Shown here one piece after another: positions 10,170-24,226 of a stretch of 64,000 nt of DNA. A program made the translations under genes and the position numbers. The first letter of the stretch is position 1, and each line of letters begins with the position of its first letter. Under the pieces are notes generated by a model. It made no database searches. It was not told the DNA's origin and saw nothing but the letters and a program-made list of their open reading frames with translations. The DNA is from Frigoribacterium sp. ACAM 257 (GTDB lineage Bacteria; Actinomycetota; Actinomycetes; Actinomycetales; Microbacteriaceae), in assembly GCF_007954365.1 (NCBI RefSeq), contig NZ_VOLO01000002.1, positions 186,001-250,000 on the forward strand, given 5' to 3'.

Positions 10170-10532
10170 TCAGTCGCGCAAGGAGGTCGAGCTTAGGAGC
10201 CCTGCAAGGGAGTCGAGCGCGCCAGGAATCAAAGAGAAGTACGCCCAGGTGCCGCGCTTCTCACGATGGAGCATGCCCGCGTCGACAAGAACCTTGAGAT
10301 GGTGCGAGACGGTGGGTTGGGAAAGGCCGAGTGGCTCCGTCAAGTCGCACACGCACGCTTCCGCGCCGGGTTGAGATGCCACCATCGAGAGCAGTCTGAG
10401 CCGCGCCGGGTCAGCGACAGCTTTCAGGGCCTTCGCCAGTACTGCCGCGCTTTCTGTATCCATGGCGCCGCCCGTCACGGGAGTGCAGCAGGCAGTCATG
10501 TCCGTGAGGGTCGAGGGCTCGGCGATGGTCAT
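10170..10532 (-). CDS. arsR: ArsR-family arsenite-responsive repressor
   Basis: The protein has 120 residues. An N-terminal Cys15-Cys16 pair matches the position of the Cys15-Cys16 ligands of Corynebacterium glutamicum ArsR, and EACVCDL adds Cys60 and Cys62 near the DNA-binding domain, where the third As(III) ligand would come. The winged-helix recognition segment is LSQPTVSHHLKVL. It is divergent from the FAD/NAD oxidoreductase gene at 10590, and the spacer holds a dyad of the type repeated through this cluster. It is the best candidate for the master repressor of the ars genes. Confidence 0.92.
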   Translation of the reverse strand: MTIAEPSTLTDMTACCTPVTGGAMDTESAAVLAKALKAVADPARLRLLSMVASQPGAEACVCDLTEPLGLSQPTVSHHLKVLVDAGMLHREKRGTWAYFSLIPGALDSLAGLLSSTSLRD

Positions 10533-10589: not shown

Positions 10590-11978
10590 ATGACTCATCT
10601 CCTCGCGATCGGCGGGAGCGACGCCGGCATCGCCGCAGCGCTCCGCGCCCGCGAACTGGACCCCTCGGCCGATGTGACGGTCATGCTCGCCGACTCCTAC
10701 CCGAACTACTCCATCTGCGGCATCCCCTACTGGATCTCCGGAGACGTCGCTGCCGAGAGCGACCTGGCCCATCGCACCGGGAGTGATCTCGAGGCCGCGG
10801 GGATCCGACTCCTTACCGACACTCGAGCCGTTGCCATCGACGTCGACGGACGCCGGGTGGAGACCGTTCACGCGGCATCTGGCGCAAGCAGTCACGTCAG
10901 CTACGACGAGGTGCTCATCGGAACAGGGGCGCATCCGGTCCGGCCCGACGGCATCCCAGTCGGCGAGCCCGGCGTCTTGCCCCTCCACACGATGGCCGAC
11001 GCCGAAGCCGTCCACGAGGCTGTTGCAGCACTGGCTGCTGGGGCACGGGTCGCCGTCATCGGGGCCGGGTACATCGGCCTGGAGATGTGCGAGGCACTCA
11101 TCGCCCGAGGCCTCGACGTCACACTCGTCCAGCGTGGACCCGAGGTGCTCAGCACCCTCGACCCCGAGCTCGGCGCCCTCATCACTGGTGAGGCCCGCGC
11201 CCACGGGGTGGCGGTCGCAACGGGAACGACCGTCACCAGCCTCACGCCCGACCGAGGAGGCACCTGGCTCGTCCACGCGTCCGGCCCTGACTCATCCACG
11301 AACCTCCTGGACGCGCCCTTCTCGCTCGTCATCGTGTGCCTCGGCGTCGCACCGAGCACCGAGCTGGCGGTGAGCGCGGGGGCCGAGCTCGGCAGCCACG
11401 GTGCGGTCGCGGTCGATGACCGGATGCGCACCGGCGTGCCGCATGTCTGGGCTGCGGGCGACTGCGTCGTCACGCACCATCGTCTCCTGGGTCTCACGTG
11501 GCTGCCCCTTGGTACGACCGCCCACAAACAGGGCCGAGTCGCCGGCGAGAACATGCTCGGAGGTGACCGCCGCTACGCCGGCTCCGTCGGTACGCAAGTC
11601 GTCAAGGTCTTCGACCTCGTCGCCGCCCGGACAGGCCTTCGCGACCGCGACGCCGCCGACCTGCCCGGCACCACGCCCCTGTCGAGCATCACCATCGCTG
11701 ACGACCACAAGGCCTACTACCCCGGTGCGGTGCCGCTCAGCATCGGCGTCACGGGCGACACCGCGACCGGACGTCTGCTCGGAGCCCAGATCGTCGGGCA
11801 CCGGAGCGCAGAAGTCGCGAAACGCATCGACGTCTTCGCCGCCGCGCTGCACGCCGGTTCCACCCTCGACGAGGTCAGCGACCTCGACCTCAGCTACACG
11901 CCACCGCTCGGATCGCCGTGGGACGCCGTCCAGGTCGCTGCCCAGGCATGGGAGCGAGAGCGACGAGAGCGCGCGTGA
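10590..11978 (+). CDS. FAD/NAD(P)-dependent disulfide oxidoreductase, CoA-disulfide-reductase-like
   Basis: The protein has 462 residues. The N-terminal FAD motif is degenerate at the first position (AIGGSDAGIAAAL). The single active-site cysteine lies in NYSICGIPYWISG, as in CoA-disulfide reductase/NADH oxidase proteins. The NAD(P) motif VIGAGYIGLEM is near residue 155, the second FAD segment VWAAGDC near residue 288, and the C-terminal dimerisation domain completes the usual length. It is first in the ars plus-strand operon, behind candidate operator 1. It may use a low-molecular-weight thiol or reduce an arsenic-thiol adduct; its substrate is unknown. The downstream monooxygenase overlaps its stop (GTGA). 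Confidence 0.88.
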   Translation: MTHLLAIGGSDAGIAAALRARELDPSADVTVMLADSYPNYSICGIPYWISGDVAAESDLAHRTGSDLEAAGIRLLTDTRAVAIDVDGRRVETVHAASGASSHVSYDEVLIGTGAHPVRPDGIPVGEPGVLPLHTMADAEAVHEAVAALAAGARVAVIGAGYIGLEMCEALIARGLDVTLVQRGPEVLSTLDPELGALITGEARAHGVAVATGTTVTSLTPDRGGTWLVHASGPDSSTNLLDAPFSLVIVCLGVAPSTELAVSAGAELGSHGAVAVDDRMRTGVPHVWAAGDCVVTHHRLLGLTWLPLGTTAHKQGRVAGENMLGGDRRYAGSVGTQVVKVFDLVAARTGLRDRDAADLPGTTPLSSITIADDHKAYYPGAVPLSIGVTGDTATGRLLGAQIVGHRSAEVAKRIDVFAAALHAGSTLDEVSDLDLSYTPPLGSPWDAVQVAAQAWERERRERA

Positions 11979-13066: not shown

Positions 13067-13083
13067 CGTCGATCATTGACGCT
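13065..13083. promoter_or_regulatory. Second dyad ahead of arsB (AGCGTC-N7-GACGCT)
   Basis: Perfect 6-bp arms lie directly after operator 2. The centre GATCATTGAC again contains an ATTGAC half-site, so the two dyads may form a tandem operator for an internal arsB promoter. Confidence 0.4.
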
Positions 13084-13137
13084 GATCTATCTGATGCGTC
13101 TTCCCGCACCCCGCCTGCCCGAGGAGCCCCCCCTGCC

Positions 13138-17789: not shown

Positions 17790-18110
17790 ATGACTGCCGA
17801 CGCCGAGGCGCACCCCGACGCACAGCGCGTGTCGCTGGCTCGCGCCGACGCCGAGACGCTCGCCAAGACCTTGCGTGCCGTCGCGGACCCGACTCGGCTG
17901 CAGCTGCTCAGCATGATCGTCGGCAGCACGGCAGGCGAAGCGTCGGTCGGGGACATGGCGGCCCAGCTGGGCCTGACCCAACCGACGGTCAGTCATCACC
18001 TGAAGATCATGCTCGACGACGAACTGCTCGTGAAGGACCAGAGGGGACGGCACGCGTGGTACTCGGTGACCGAAGCCCGCAAGACGGCGATCGTCGACCT
18101 GCTGCGCTGA
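17790..18110 (+). CDS. ArsR-family regulator without cysteines
   Basis: The protein has 106 residues with a clear winged helix (LTQPTVSHHLKIM). It aligns by eye with the ArsR at 10170, but the stretch EACVCDL of that protein reads EASVGDM here, and there is no cysteine in the whole protein. It therefore cannot sense As(III) through thiols in the usual way. It may be constitutive, use another ligand, or respond through the fusion protein encoded immediately downstream, which overlaps or nearly abuts it. Target genes are unknown. Confidence 0.85.
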   Translation: MTADAEAHPDAQRVSLARADAETLAKTLRAVADPTRLQLLSMIVGSTAGEASVGDMAAQLGLTQPTVSHHLKIMLDDELLVKDQRGRHAWYSVTEARKTAIVDLLR

Positions 18111-18127
18111 CGACCGCACCTCGCGCT

Positions 18128-19096
18128 GTGGGTGTTCCTCTGGATGATGCCCACGCTCGATCGAGGACACAGCAGATCGCTGTCCTCACCGACCCTGACC
18201 GGCTACGGCTGCTCAGCGAGCTCGCCGTCGATGCGACCCAGCCCCTCGATGATCTCGCCGCCACGTCGGGCCTTGACATCGACATCGTGCACGAACACCT
18301 CGACGTCCTCTCCCGCAGCGGCCTGATCGAACCGGTCCCGTCGACTGCCGGGCCGCGGTGGAGACTCACCCCTGAGGCGATCGTGCGGTTCGGTCGCCTC
18401 CTCGTCGACACCGGGCCGAGGAACGAGCCGGTCCGGGCCCGGTCGGACCATGAGCCTCGGGAGGAGACGTCGCCCGCGGTCCTCCCTGCGGCGATCCTCC
18501 GGGTCGTCGACCAGCTCGCGTACCGTCACGACGGGTCGTTCTCCCGTGAGACCGTCGCCGCGTACGTCGCCGAGAGCTACGCCCTGCTCGCCGAGCAGGC
18601 ACACATCACCCGGCACCTGCCTTCCCTCACGTCTCGCTTCGCTCAGCAACGCCTCGAGGCTCTGGCCACGACGACCGGTCTGGTGCTGCGGGGCACGCCG
18701 GAGGTGCTGTTCGTCTGCGTGCAGAACGCCGGCCGGTCACAGATGGCCGCGGCGTTGCTCCGATCGCTCGCAGGGGGCGCGGTACATGTACGGACGGCCG
18801 GGTCGAGTCCCGCCTCGTCCATCGACCCGGACGTCGTCGATGCCCTCGATGAGATCGGGGTCCCCGTTGCGGCGGAGTTCCCGAAGCCCCTGACGGACGA
18901 GGTCGTCCAGGCGGCCGACGTCGTGATCACGATGGGCTGCGGTGATGCGTGCCCCATCTACCCGGGAAGGCGGTACCTGGACTGGCCGGTCGAGGACCCG
19001 GTGGGTCTCGGTGTCGAGGGCGTGCGTGCCGTGCGGGACGACATCGCCGGCCGCGTCACCGCTCTCGTCGAGGAGCTGGGCGTGCTCAGCCGCTGA
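18128..19096 (+). CDS. HTH - three-helix - arsenate reductase fusion
   Basis: The protein has about 322 residues. An N-terminal ArsR-like winged helix (PDRLRLLSELA to the wing near residue 80) is followed by the same helical domain as in ArsC at 14643, then a low-molecular-weight phosphatase domain with catalytic loop CVQNAGRSQ and redox segment [15 protein letters not shown]. It thus joins DNA binding to an intact arsenate reductase. I favour GTG 18128 as the start because it begins near the HTH; an upstream in-frame GTG at 18056 would overlap the ArsR gene by 55 bases. The stop overlaps the convergent regulator gene by 11 bases. Confidence 0.8.
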   Translation: MGVPLDDAHARSRTQQIAVLTDPDRLRLLSELAVDATQPLDDLAATSGLDIDIVHEHLDVLSRSGLIEPVPSTAGPRWRLTPEAIVRFGRLLVDTGPRNEPVRARSDHEPREETSPAVLPAAILRVVDQLAYRHDGSFSRETVAAYVAESYALLAEQAHITRHLPSLTSRFAQQRLEALATTTGLVLRGTPEVLFVCVQNAGRSQMAAALLRSLAGGAVHVRTAGSSPASSIDPDVVDALDEIGVPVAAEFPKPLTDEVVQAADVVITMGCGDACPIYPGRRYLDWPVEDPVGLGVEGVRAVRDDIAGRVTALVEELGVLSR

Positions 19097-19817
19097 CTCG
19101 GTAGCCGACCCCTCGGACGGTCTCGACGGTGGCGTGAGCGGCACCGGACACCGCGTCAAGCTTGTGGCGCACCTTCCCGACCATGACCCGCATCCGGCTG
19201 GCGTACTGCTGCTCGCCGGACTCGAAGACGGACAGCAACTCCTCGAGGGGCACGACGCGCGGGGATTGCGCGACCAGGTGGTGCAGGATCGCGAACTCTT
19301 TCGGGCTCAGCGCGACGGGGGTGTCCCCGACGGCAGCGACGTGGGCTGCGGCGTCGATGCAGAGGGCACCGCAGCACACCGATCCGAGGGTGGCGTCGAC
19401 CTTCCACGGCATCGACGAGACAGCTCGAGCGAGGGGCTGTGGTGCTGCGGGGAGGGCCATGATCGAGCGGGCGCCGAGGTCGAGAGGGCTGACGGCTTCC
19501 CCGGTGTCCGGGGAGGCGGTGGGCAGCCCGACGATGACCGGCGCAGACGTCAGCGCGGAGGCGAGTTCGACGAGACGTGCCAGGGTCATGCCGTGCAGAT
19601 CGACGGGTGCGAGGATCACCGCTCCGGGGGAGCGGCTGGCGACGAGGAGCGCGTCGAGCGGATCGATGCAGCTGATCGCGTCGACTCCGCTGGTGCGGTG
19701 TTCCTCGGGTGTGCCCGAGAGGACCGGGCCTGATGCGGAGTCGATGACGACGACTGTCCGGGCGGACGTCGCCGGCGCCAGGGGAGGAGCCATGCGGTGG
19801 CGCCAGTCGGTGGTCAC
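19086..19817 (-). CDS. OmpR-type winged-helix regulator with degenerate receiver half and Cys cluster
   Basis: The protein has 243 residues. Residues 20-135 have the alternating hydrophobic pattern of a receiver domain but lack a recognisable phospho-acceptor pattern. Residues 145-243 form an OmpR/PhoB-type winged helix ([13 protein letters not shown], then VRHKLD and [11 protein letters not shown]). Between them, in the first strands of the winged helix, is VCCGALC with Cys148, Cys149 and Cys153; Cys50 is the only other cysteine. A three-thiol site is what As(III) sensors use. The GTG start overlaps the pstB stop (GTGA), so it is made with the phosphate importer. A dedicated regulator of pst or ars genes is inferred. 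Confidence 0.8.
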
Positions 19818-20707: not shown

Positions 20708-21622
20708 CTACCAGCGGCTCTGGAAGCGGTTGCGGATGAAGATCGCGAGGGCGTTCATGGTCACCAGCAGTACGAGCAGCACGATCGATGTCGCAGCTGC
20801 CAGGTCGTGGAACTCGGCCTGGGGCCTGCCGGTCCAGTTGAAGATCTGGATGGGGAGGGTCGTGAACCCGCTGAGGAGGCCGTTGGGGTCGAAGCTGACG
20901 AACACGAGGGCACCGAGCAGCAGCAGTGGGGCTGCCTCGCCGAGAGCGCGTGAGAGGGCGAGGATCGATCCGGTGGCGATGCCGGGAACGGCGGAGGGCA
21001 GTACCTGACGCCAGGTCGTCTGCCACTGGCTGGCACCAAGGGCGAGGGAACCCTGGCGGATCTCTTGCGGGACAGCTCTGAGAGCTTCCCGGGTGGAGAT
21101 GATGATGACGGGCAGGATCAGCAGGCTCAGGGCCAGGGCGCCACCGATGACGATGTTCTTGTCCTGGACGCCGAGGAGGCTGAGGAAGCTGAGCGCCAGG
21201 AGGCCGTAGACGATGGAGGGCACCGAGGCGAGGTTCTGCACGTTGACCTCGACGAGTCTGTTGAACCAGTTCGAGCGGTCCGCGAACTCCTCGAGGTGCA
21301 CCGCGGCGGCGACGCCGAGGGGAATTGTGAACACGGCGGTGGTGGCGATGACCCAGATGGACCCGAGGATCGCGGGCCGGGCTCCTGCTCGTTCCGGAGA
21401 TGATGACGGGTACTCCGTCAGCAGTGTTGCAGTGAGGCGCGGGGCGCCTTGGATGGCGACCGTGGCCACCAGGGTGATGAGGAACACCACCGCGACCGCG
21501 AGGCACAGCCACAACGCGACCAGGAAGATCATGGGGCGAAGTCCCCGCTCGCCGTTGCGTGACGATGACGCCAGGGGCGCCGGCCGGGTCGAGGGAGCGA
21601 CGCTCTCGGACAGGGTCTTCAT
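20708..21622 (-). CDS. pstA: Phosphate ABC transporter permease PstA
   Basis: The protein has 304 residues with six membrane helices and the permease EAA-like loop (QEIRQGSLALGASQWQTTWR, in part) near residue 195. It begins with a polar 30-residue stretch. ATG 21622 overlaps the pstC stop by one base. It forms the channel with PstC. Confidence 0.95.
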   Translation of the reverse strand: MKTLSESVAPSTRPAPLASSSRNGERGLRPMIFLVALWLCLAVAVVFLITLVATVAIQGAPRLTATLLTEYPSSSPERAGARPAILGSIWVIATTAVFTIPLGVAAAVHLEEFADRSNWFNRLVEVNVQNLASVPSIVYGLLALSFLSLLGVQDKNIVIGGALALSLLILPVIIISTREALRAVPQEIRQGSLALGASQWQTTWRQVLPSAVPGIATGSILALSRALGEAAPLLLLGALVFVSFDPNGLLSGFTTLPIQIFNWTGRPQAEFHDLAAATSIVLLVLLVTMNALAIFIRNRFQSRW

Positions 21623-22572
21623 CAGTAGATCTCCCGGAAGCGGCGGACGATTCGGATGCTGATCGCGTTGACCAGCAAGGTGACGGCGAACAGGAGCAGT
21701 CCGACGGCGAAGAGCGTGTCGTACTCGAGGGAGCCGACCCGGGAGTCTCCGAGGGCTGCGTTGGCGATGAAGCCGGTCATCGTCTGACCCTGCTCGAGGG
21801 GGCCGCCGACGAGACGCGCCTGGTTGCCGGCGGCGATGGCGACGATCATGGTCTCTCCGACGGCGCGACTGATGCCGAGGACGACGGCGGCCACGATGCC
21901 TGACGTCGCGGCGGGGAAGACGACGCGGAGAGTCGTCTGCATGCGGTTGGCGCCGAGAGCTGCTGACCCCTGGCGAAGCGCGAGCGGCACCGCCGACAGG
22001 GAGTCCTCGGAGATGGACGCGATGGTGGGGACGATCATCACGCCCATCACGAGCCCTGCGGCGAGGACGCTGAAGGCCCCGGTCTGGAGCGCGAGGACGT
22101 CGCGGAGCACGACCGTCTGGACGAACTGGAGGGCGAAGAGGCCGTAGACGACGGTGGGGATGCCCGCCAAGATCTCGAGGATCGGCTTGAGGACGCGGCG
22201 TACTCGGGGTCGGGCGTACTCGGCGAGGTACACGGCTGCGCCCAGGCCGAGCGGGACGGCGACGACGAGGGCGATGACCGTCGTCCACAGAGTCGCGGTG
22301 ACCAGGGGGAGCACGCCGAAGGAGGCGTCAGCGAAGCGAGGTGCCCAGCGGGTCCCGAAGAGGAACTCGAGCACGGGGACCTCGCGGAAGAACCCCCACG
22401 CAGGGACGACGAGGGCGATGAGGATGCCGAGGGCAGTGATGACAGTCACCGACGCGGCGATGCGCAGAACGACGCGGATGACTGCCTCCACGGGCCGGGC
22501 GCGACCGGTGAAGTGCGATGTGCCTGCTCGTGCCGGTGCGCCGGAGCGGGCGGGCTCGGTCATGGTGGTCAT
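21622..22572 (-). CDS. pstC: Phosphate ABC transporter permease PstC
   Basis: The protein has 316 residues and six membrane helices. The permease loop reads LALRQGSAALGANRMQT in part, near residue 205. PstC and PstA form the transmembrane channel. A second in-frame ATG nine bases downstream (22563) is an alternative start. A strong hairpin lies between this gene and pstS. Confidence 0.95.
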   Translation of the reverse strand: MTTMTEPARSGAPARAGTSHFTGRARPVEAVIRVVLRIAASVTVITALGILIALVVPAWGFFREVPVLEFLFGTRWAPRFADASFGVLPLVTATLWTTVIALVVAVPLGLGAAVYLAEYARPRVRRVLKPILEILAGIPTVVYGLFALQFVQTVVLRDVLALQTGAFSVLAAGLVMGVMIVPTIASISEDSLSAVPLALRQGSAALGANRMQTTLRVVFPAATSGIVAAVVLGISRAVGETMIVAIAAGNQARLVGGPLEQGQTMTGFIANAALGDSRVGSLEYDTLFAVGLLLFAVTLLVNAISIRIVRRFREIY

Positions 22573-22648: not shown

Positions 22649-23608
22649 TCAGGAAGCGAGGCTTGCGAGCTCGTCCTGTGCGGTGGTCAGCTGCTCGTCG
22701 GTGAGGCCGATGAACAGGGCGTCCTCCGCGACCTGGGAGGCGTTCTCGACGTAGTAGTCCACGAACGACTTCACCTGGGGCTTGTCGGTGTACGAGGCGT
22801 TGGCGACGTAGACGTAGAGTCCGCGCCCGAGCGGGGCGTAGGTGCCGTCCTGGACGGTCTCGGCGGTCGGCGAGACGCAGCCGGAACCGTTGTCGACTGC
22901 GACGGCCTTGACGGAGTCGCTGTTCTGCTCGACGTAGGAGAGGCCGAAGAACCCGACGGCACCGGTGTCGCCGGAGACTCCCTGCACGGTGATGTTGTCG
23001 TCTTCGCTGGGCGAGTAGTCCGTGCGGATCGCGCCCTCTTCGCCGTTGATGGCGTCGGTGAAGTAGTCGAAGGTGCCCGAGTCGGTGCCTGCTCCGAAGA
23101 GCGACAGCTCCTGGTCGGGGAAGGACGGGTCGATCTGGTTCCAGTTGGTGATGGTGCCTTCGGCGTCCGGCCCCCACATCGTCGCGAGCTGCTCGGTGGT
23201 GAGGCACTCGGCCCAGTCGTTCTCGGGGTTCACCACGACCGAGAGGCCGTCGTTGGCGATGATGATCTCGGTGTAGTCGATGCCCGCTGCCTCGCACGCA
23301 GCGATCTCGTCGTCCTCGATGGGACGGGAAGCGTCCTGCAGGTCGGTCTCGCCGGCGCAGAACTTCGCGAAGCCACCTCCGGTGCCAGAGGTGGCGACGG
23401 TGACGTTGACGTCGGACTGCTCGGAGCGGAAGAGGTCGGCTGCGGCCTCGCTGAGGGGGGCCACCGTCGAGGACCCGTCGACGGTGACGGTTCCTGACGT
23501 CCCGTCCTCAGAGCCCTCGGACGACTGGCCACCGCAGCCGGTCAGGAGGAGGCCGGCAGATGCGACTACGGCCAAGAGGCTGATGATCTTCGGAGAACGT
23601 GTGCGCAC
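22649..23608 (-). CDS. pstS: Phosphate-binding lipoprotein PstS
   Basis: The protein has 319 residues. A signal peptide ends in the lipobox LLTGCGG, so it is membrane-tethered. The periplasmic-binding fold shows the phosphate-contact segments DGSSTVAPLS, TSGTGGGF and GTDSGTFDYF. It captures phosphate for PstCAB. I chose GTG 23608 because AGAAGGA lies 6 bases upstream and it places the signal peptide correctly. The upstream region holds a PHO box and dyads shared with the divergent arsenate reductase gene. Selectivity for phosphate over arsenate would be expected to matter here. Confidence 0.95.
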   Translation of the reverse strand: MRTRSPKIISLLAVVASAGLLLTGCGGQSSEGSEDGTSGTVTVDGSSTVAPLSEAAADLFRSEQSDVNVTVATSGTGGGFAKFCAGETDLQDASRPIEDDEIAACEAAGIDYTEIIIANDGLSVVVNPENDWAECLTTEQLATMWGPDAEGTITNWNQIDPSFPDQELSLFGAGTDSGTFDYFTDAINGEEGAIRTDYSPSEDDNITVQGVSGDTGAVGFFGLSYVEQNSDSVKAVAVDNGSGCVSPTAETVQDGTYAPLGRGLYVYVANASYTDKPQVKSFVDYYVENASQVAEDALFIGLTDEQLTTAQDELASLAS

Positions 23609-23672: not shown

Positions 23673-23690
23673 GATAGAAGATCGTCTATG
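23673..23690. promoter_or_regulatory. Dyad A in the pstS-arsC spacer (GATAGA-N6-TCTATG)
   Basis: This 18-bp dyad has one terminal mismatch. Its right arm overlaps the PHO box by six bases. The same arms recur 55 bases downstream as dyad B. Confidence 0.5.
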
Positions 23691-23706
23691 TGAACGTAGG
23701 GTGAAC
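23685..23706 (-). promoter_or_regulatory. PHO box (two 11-nt direct repeats) upstream of pstS
   Basis: Read toward pstS, the site is GTTCACCCTAC followed directly by GTTCACATAGA. Direct repeats of 11 nt beginning GTTCAC are the PhoP binding unit of Streptomyces PHO boxes. It lies 77-98 bases before the pstS start, suitable for activation under phosphate limitation. Confidence 0.7.
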
Positions 23707-23727: not shown

Positions 23728-23745
23728 GATAGACGGCCCTCTATC
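23728..23745. promoter_or_regulatory. Dyad B in the pstS-arsC spacer (GATAGA-N6-TCTATC)
   Basis: Perfect 6-bp arms lie 71 bases before the arsC start. With dyad A it brackets the divergent promoter region, suggesting that one dyad-binding regulator controls both pstS and arsC. Confidence 0.55.
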
Positions 23746-23815: not shown

Positions 23816-24226
23816 ATGTCTGACAAGCCCACTGTCCTGTTCGTCTGCGTGCACAACGCTGGCCGCTCCCAGATGGCTGCCGGTTACCTGCAGGCCATGG
23901 CTGGAGACCGAGTAGAAGTTGTGTCCGCGGGTAGCGAGCCGAAGGACCAGATCAACCCGGTCGCGATCCAGGCCATGGCCGAAGAGGGCATCGACATCGC
24001 CGGGAACCAGCCGAAGGTCCTCACGACCGAGGCTGTCCGCGGCAGCGACGTCGTCATCACCATGGGTTGCGGCGACGCGTGCCCGATCTTCCCCGGCAAG
24101 CGCTACGAGGACTGGGAGCTCGCCGACCCGGCCGGCCAGGGCATCGACGCCGTCCGGCCGATCCGCGACGACATCAAGGCGCGGATCACGGCCCTGCTGG
24201 CCGAGATCGCGCCGGCCGCCGCATGA
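23816..24226 (+). CDS. arsC: Arsenate reductase (three-cysteine type), short form
   Basis: The protein has 136 residues, without the helical extension of the copy at 14643. The catalytic loop is CVHNAGRSQ and the redox segment [18 protein letters not shown]. It reduces arsenate to arsenite. It is divergent from pstS across a 207-base control region and overlaps the next phosphatase gene (ATGA). Confidence 0.94.
   Translation: MSDKPTVLFVCVHNAGRSQMAAGYLQAMAGDRVEVVSAGSEPKDQINPVAIQAMAEEGIDIAGNQPKVLTTEAVRGSDVVITMGCGDACPIFPGKRYEDWELADPAGQGIDAVRPIRDDIKARITALLAEIAPAAA

Follow-up and report, generated by a model that had tools for sequence, protein, structure and literature searches.

A putative pseudo-receiver regulator at the end of an island pstSCAB operon may tie phosphate import to arsenic

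The island phosphate transport (pst) operon in the window, the whole 64,000-nucleotide stretch of DNA that we analysed, ends in a gene, here termed REG, whose product appears to be a kinase-free regulator of the OmpR/PhoB type. We propose that with this regulator arsenic, and not only phosphate starvation, sets phosphate import, a reading whose chances we rate as even. The assignment of REG to a family, the apparent loss of its phospho-acceptor, its synteny, its coupling to pstB and the co-occurrence of a candidate composite promoter site with ars genes are all read from sequence; the binding of an ArsR protein to that site, the binding of REG to the repeats within it and the sign of REG action are what we infer.

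Results

An OmpR-type regulator coupled to pstB

The island comprises the following genes.

18125..19096, plus strand: ArsR-ArsC fusion, convergent with REG; start uncertain
19086..19817, minus strand: REG, 243 aa from a GTG start; putative pseudo-receiver followed by an OmpR-type winged helix
19814..20698, minus strand: pstB of the island (second) pst operon, ABC_tran
20708..21622, minus strand: pstA; start inferred; assigned from its position and from island-to-island matches
21622..22572, minus strand: pstC; likewise assigned from its position and from island-to-island matches
22649..23608, minus strand: pstS, lipoprotein, TIGR02136; start inferred from the signal peptide
23816..24226, plus strand: arsC (LMWPc), divergent from pstS; start inferred

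Translation of the minus-strand frame at 19086-19817 gave 243 residues with zero internal stops. The stop codon of pstB and the start codon of REG share 4 nt as GTGA (GTG plus TGA), which confirms the overlap described in the initial annotation, and the 3' end of REG overlaps the convergent arsR-arsC fusion. The C-terminal half of REG is a PF00486 winged helix (residues 166-240, E 1.3e-13, 51.2 bits against a cut-off of 26.2). Pfam detected this domain and no HTH_5 match in REG, hence the protein does not have the ArsR fold. Whole-length profile matches were headed by PrrA and RegX3, and among solved structures PhoB chains were closest to the effector domain. REG scored 49.2 bits with the PhoB model TIGR02154, far under its cut-off of 296.2, and 56.7 bits with the MtrA model, against a cut-off of 300 (both NCBIfam).

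The receiver half of REG appears to lack the usual phospho-acceptor

HMMER alignment to RegX3 and DrrD placed Pro71 at the phospho-Asp site of REG and Leu122 at the Lys site; the receiver half is therefore degenerate, as had been noted before, and gave no Response_reg match in the window protein at E 0.01. The same features recur across the family. Among 21 aligned proteins the phospho-Asp column holds Pro in 12, Ala in three, Ser in three and Gly in three, never Asp or Glu, and the Lys column holds Leu in 17 of 21 and Lys in none. Neither of the alignment columns for residues 70 and 71 contains Asp or Glu in any of the 21 proteins. Asp73, near the lost phospho-site, is present in 10 of 21 and may be an alternative phospho-acceptor. 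At E 0.01, Pfam matched PF00486 in 20 of 21 family members and Response_reg in three, so that the homology of the N-terminal half to receivers rests on these three matches and on the profile alignment, which covers positions 10-232 of 241.

Pfam scans revealed no kinase gene beside REG among the window neighbours scanned, nor among the nine neighbours scanned at three further loci (L073, L075 and L126); at the remaining loci, the neighbours were scanned for pst and ars genes only.

REG belongs to a fast-evolving family

The REG family has at least 22 members including the window protein. These counts are lower bounds, since six to seven candidates were scored per genome and two members (in G411 and G695) were not singled out in this way. 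A search of 99 genomes, among them that of the window, listed for the most part ordinary regulators (24-36% identity), together with one syntenic match, in G033, where pstA-pstB-REG is convergent with an ArsR-ArsC fusion. A two-row model built from the window protein and that of G033 found at least 12 matches besides the window at E 6.9e-29 or better in 398 genomes of the bacterial family, G033 itself being counted among the 12, and the next match stood across a gap at 8.5e-22. A 14-row model applied to 396 genomes of the order added at least six further members above background, and the members in G411 and G695 were recovered by synteny and by an operator match, respectively. In addition, a search with the fusion protein led to a plasmid copy in Cellulosimicrobium cellulans (NZ_CP072388.1), annotated as a winged helix regulator after pstB. 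Searches of plasmids, genome contigs and viral contigs with the window protein returned no close relative, the best match having 36% identity over part of the protein.

In a phylogenetic tree the 22 REG genes form one side of a branch with support 100/99, separate from 21 ordinary regulators, with L187 and L135 on long branches. Identity to the window REG ranges from 17 to 33% in the 21-row alignment. The two closest REG pairs have dN/dS of about 0.15 and about 0.31, and REG is therefore under purifying selection; three distant pairs gave 0.33, 0.49 and 0.70, values that lie near saturation. In the recognition helix, residue 217 is Arg in all 21 proteins, and residue 215 is Arg or Lys in 17 and Ser or Thr in four. 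In the alignment, one member (L135:7329-8042, from G411) is missing the usual C-terminal wing motif and may be decaying.

REG genes lie among pst and ars genes

Thirteen of the 22 REG genes have pstB on one side and a convergent arsR-arsC fusion on the other (the window, L033, L067, L068, L069, L077, L064, L125, L127, L128, L130, L135 and L187), with a small hypothetical gene intervening in L064. In three more, REG comes after an island-type pstB and the stretch retrieved showed no ars gene (L075, where polyphosphate kinase is the next gene to REG, L126 and L129), and in another three the preceding pstB is of a different type (L072, L074 and L076). Two end an ars operon and have a pst operon about 5 kb away (L070 and L071), and one is unlinked (L073, in G124), with a PHO-type repeat just upstream, around position 10480. 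Because three members have neither a nearby ars gene nor the ArsR-like site described below, and three more accompany another pst type, phosphate is the commoner partner of REG. L070 and L071 come from two related genomes, in which an arsR-arsC-arsC operon lacking pst ends with the family member; the neighbours of L073 are DUF1206 and sigma-factor genes.

We also compared islands with closely similar transporters. A pstB at least 75% identical to that of the window occurs in 12 of the 398 genomes of the family, eight of them with REG and four without detected REG, although in one of these four (G257, L133) the sequence ends 353 bases after pstB and the absence is not firm. Adjacent ars genes were found in seven of the eight REG-bearing islands and in none of the four REG-less ones (one-sided Fisher p 0.010, or 0.024 without G257, with kinship ignored). 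Besides the island operon, the window genome has a housekeeping pst operon, and the pstB genes of the two are 59% identical.

A candidate composite PHO and ArsR-like site at pstS

The spacer between pstS and arsC contains two kinds of repeat.

23674..23689: candidate ArsR-like operator ATAGA-N6-TCTAT, abutting the PHO-type repeat on the pstS side
23690..23706, minus strand: PHO-type direct repeat GTTCACCCTACGTTCAC, exact GTTCAYN5GTTCAY
to about 23717, minus strand: weaker third PHO-type repeat (GTTCC), extending the direct repeat
23729..23744: second exact ATAGA-N6-TCTAT, on the arsC side of the spacer

The inverted repeat ATAGA-N6-TCTAT occurs in the window twice exactly and once with one mismatch, against 0.02 expected. 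The one-mismatch copy, at 13075-13090, lies near the 5' end of the arsB gene, and the two exact copies in the pstS-arsC spacer perhaps serve one divergent operon each. The direct repeat GTTCAYN5GTTCAY occurs once in the window against 0.23 expected and in 20 of 100 shuffles, and is thus not significant alone; its exact form is the single occurrence in the 3.33-Mb genome. With N in place of Y and up to one mismatch allowed, the genome has 44 sites (two of them exact) compared to 15 for the reversed pattern, and one of these relaxed sites lies at the housekeeping pstS.

Joined, the two elements make up a 33-nt composite pattern, GTTCAY-N5-GTTCAY abutting ATAGA-N6-TCTAT, which was noticed by eye and then tested. 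All 13 ars-linked islands match the composite with 0-3 mismatches, 12 of them having helped to define it and the 13th (G695) having been found by it, whereas 15 other pst promoters have 4-9. The latter comprise three ars-unlinked family members (6-8 mismatches), five pst operons without detected REG (4-9) and seven operons of another pst type (4-9), with the L072 comparison segment centred on a repeat whose pstS is unconfirmed. The ArsR-like half separates the ars-linked islands from the other promoters better than the whole composite does, with 0-1 of 10 mismatches in 13 of 13 islands compared to 3-8 at the same place in the 15 others.

PHO-type repeats with 0-2 mismatches are present in 13 of the 15 other pst promoters, including three where REG was undetected (L133, L134 and L137) and the housekeeping pst of the window genome (L144), and are weak, with three mismatches, in L136 and L139. 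We had considered the GTTCA repeats as sites specific to REG and rejected this, as they also occur at REG-undetected pst operons and at the housekeeping pst. Since the PHO-type repeats are general, they need not be those of REG, and the host phosphate regulator may use them. In L137 (G281, about 10767-10799), where no REG or ars gene was found, a PHO-type repeat is abutted by a partial ArsR-like half with three mismatches; this site, which has four mismatches to the composite, is perhaps a relic or chance.

Genome scans with the composite gave matches at up to three mismatches in nine of 396 genomes of the order, compared to one of 396 for a reversed control. The six matches at no more than one mismatch are the six genomes with REG and ars genes known from the protein search. 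The match in G695, with three mismatches, revealed a pst-REG-ars island not singled out by the protein search, and the three-mismatch matches in G486 and G585, near ordinary regulators, are probably chance. In the class, sites with up to two mismatches were found in three of 286 genomes, all in that order, and in none of 260 genomes of other orders.

ArsR proteins of the islands

Two further ArsR-type genes of the window bear on arsenic sensing.

17790..18110, plus strand: Cys-less ArsR paralogue beside the fusion
10194..10412, minus strand: part of a 120-aa Cys-bearing ArsR (CC at 15-16, C60, C62)

The Cys-less ArsR (17790-18110) and the fusion (18125-19096) are found together again in the ars-linked islands. 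In 12 of 13 such islands the fusion-adjacent ArsR lacks Cys, the exception (L068) having a single Cys in an N-terminal stretch with a possibly misplaced start, and the ArsR-like domain of the ArsR-ArsC fusion has no Cys either. The fusion might sense arsenate via its reductase half. The Cys-bearing ArsR at 10194-10412, with its CC and CVC motifs, lies distant from the pst operon and is of the type that we take to be the conventional As(III) sensor. Such a protein (CC, CVC) is present in the window and in eight of the other 12 ars-linked islands in the stretches examined, and a conventional As(III) sensor is thus often present in these islands.

A proposed mechanism and its alternatives

In the mechanism we propose, the island pstSCAB-REG operon would be switched at a composite promoter in which an ArsR-like operator adjoins PHO-type 11-bp repeats that an OmpR-family protein would bind. 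Arsenic would relieve an ArsR-type repressor, and pstSCAB and REG would be made together; REG, requiring no kinase, would then act back on PHO-type repeats of its own operon and perhaps of others, its supply being set by the operon that it ends. Phosphate-selective import would thereby track arsenic exposure and not a PhoR-type phosphate signal alone. We favour activation by REG, as in a feed-forward loop, because ArsR-controlled island pst genes in Agrobacterium tumefaciens rise with As(III) under a control described as insensitive to phosphate (PMC7965956). The variation at residue 215 of the recognition helix would be odd for a constant operator and counts against this mechanism. As a wider and more tentative generalization, which we rate as somewhat less likely than not, a dedicated family of kinase-free PHO-box regulators would place phosphate import under arsenic in place of phosphate starvation, by way of a fused PHO-ArsR operator whose ArsR half is gained and lost with ars genes.

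REG in the window lineage could instead be a switch for As(III) or redox state, acting through the thiols of Cys148, Cys149, Cys153 and possibly Cys50.

19359..19376, minus strand: cysteine cluster CCGALC, codons 148-153 of REG; not conserved in orthologues

Minus-strand translation of 19086-19817 bore out the VCCGALC motif reported for this OmpR-type protein, with Cys148, Cys149 and Cys153 located as stated where the effector domain begins its first strands, in line with VCGDLIL of DrrD. The protein has four Cys in 243 residues (50, 148, 149 and 153), three of them within six residues, and Cys-mediated control is described for the pseudo-receiver RitR and for HP1021-type proteins in a review (PMC12632262). 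Moreover, no near relative of the window REG was found in 15 other genomes of the genus, where the best match (L004; E 2.6e-16, 33% identity) has canonical receiver residues. However, Cys148, Cys149 and Cys153 are present in 0, 1 (L036) and 0 of 21 orthologues (20 others in the 21-row alignment plus the L187 segment, which has no Cys there), 12 of which adjoin both pst and ars genes. The initial annotation had taken REG for a putative As(III) or thiol sensor and had asked whether VCCGALC is kept where pst and ars co-occur; the cysteines are not kept in those 12, and we rejected the cluster as a family feature. The window also contains its own conventional Cys-bearing ArsR, and so the island needs no REG for As(III) sensing. 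The cluster is a lineage-specific addition with at most a putative role, and we regard a thiol switch as very improbable.

REG could also be a brake that fills the PHO-type repeats without activating, and so limits arsenate entry via Pst or damps the phosphate regulon, which we consider unlikely. The linkage and operator evidence suits a brake as it does activation, and a non-phosphorylatable relative that competes with the host phosphate regulator for the repeats would repress; consistent with this, inorganic arsenic does not induce but negatively affects pstB and pstC in Rhodococcus aetherivorans BCP1, which there belong to a housekeeping pst (PMC6514093). PstS strongly favours phosphate over arsenate, however, making a shut-off of Pst under arsenic less expected (PMC7866108). 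Less probable still is that REG acts mainly by protein contact, through a PhoP-type mixed dimer or PstB/PhoU-type signalling, and not by binding an operator of its own. The slot after pstB is a frequent position of phoU. REG occupies it, coupled to pstB by 4 nt, the only PhoU gene of the window genome lies elsewhere on the contig, and the recognition helix varies, all of which would suit a contact partner; against this stand the winged-helix core in 20 of 21 members and the invariant Arg217, as well as the members that end ars operons without pst and the one that is unlinked.

Discussion

Much of the setting of REG is already known, including second pst operons in arsenic islands (PMC3834237), ArsR control of pst1, ArsR-ArsC fusions, which occur in actinobacteria (PMC6514093), and pseudo-receivers. 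Direct PHO repeats of 11 nt at pstS have likewise been described (PMC7866108). Arsenic-linked phosphate import, advanced in the initial annotation as a wiring without described precedent, therefore stands in outline, given the linkage and the ArsR-like operator at pstS, and its novelty does not, the general wiring being known from A. tumefaciens 5A. For the REG family or the composite operator we found no published description in the open-licence literature.

If the wider generalization holds, the activity of a pseudo-receiver would be set by co-expression and not by phosphorylation. Known modes of pseudo-receiver control include availability, Cys-linked dimerisation and ligands (PMC12632262), and RitR dimerises via a linker Cys (PMC12632262, PMC5965902). 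Control by availability would fit REG best; Cys-linked dimerisation has this precedent, but in the 21-row alignment Cys is conserved at no position in the REG linker or close to it. The switching of bacterial pseudo-receivers has been called unsolved (PMC12632262). It now becomes testable, because for the REG family the operon is defined, a likely operator is at hand and islands that have ars genes can be set against islands that lack them.

ChxR, HP1043, RitR and JadR1 are OmpR-type regulators. As REG appears to do, they combine an effector domain with a receiver-like N-terminal half that lacks the usual catalytic residues (PMC12632262); the review sections consulted tie none of them to pst and ars genes (PMC12632262). 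The PhoP, PhoB and RegX3 regulators share with the REG system the kinship of the effector domain and the 11-nt direct repeats at pstS, and REG differs from them in the loss of the usual phospho-acceptor and in a TIGR02154 score far below cut-off.

The closest known arrangement is the pst1/phoB1 locus of A. tumefaciens 5A, which likewise has a second pst beside ars genes, ArsR control and a PhoB-type gene in the locus (PMC7965956, PMC3834237), and where ArsR1 represses the island copies pstS1 and phoB1 (PMC7965956). In that locus phoB1 and pstS1 are divergent and there is a phoU1 gene, whereas in the window REG follows pstB and no phoU comes after it. The window regulator is a putative pseudo-receiver, and, as a further difference, an ArsR-like site abuts the PHO-type repeat. 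If our reading is true, the REG islands would be the counterpart, in actinobacteria, of the ArsR-pst1 wiring known from proteobacteria, in which phosphate is drawn in and arsenate kept out.
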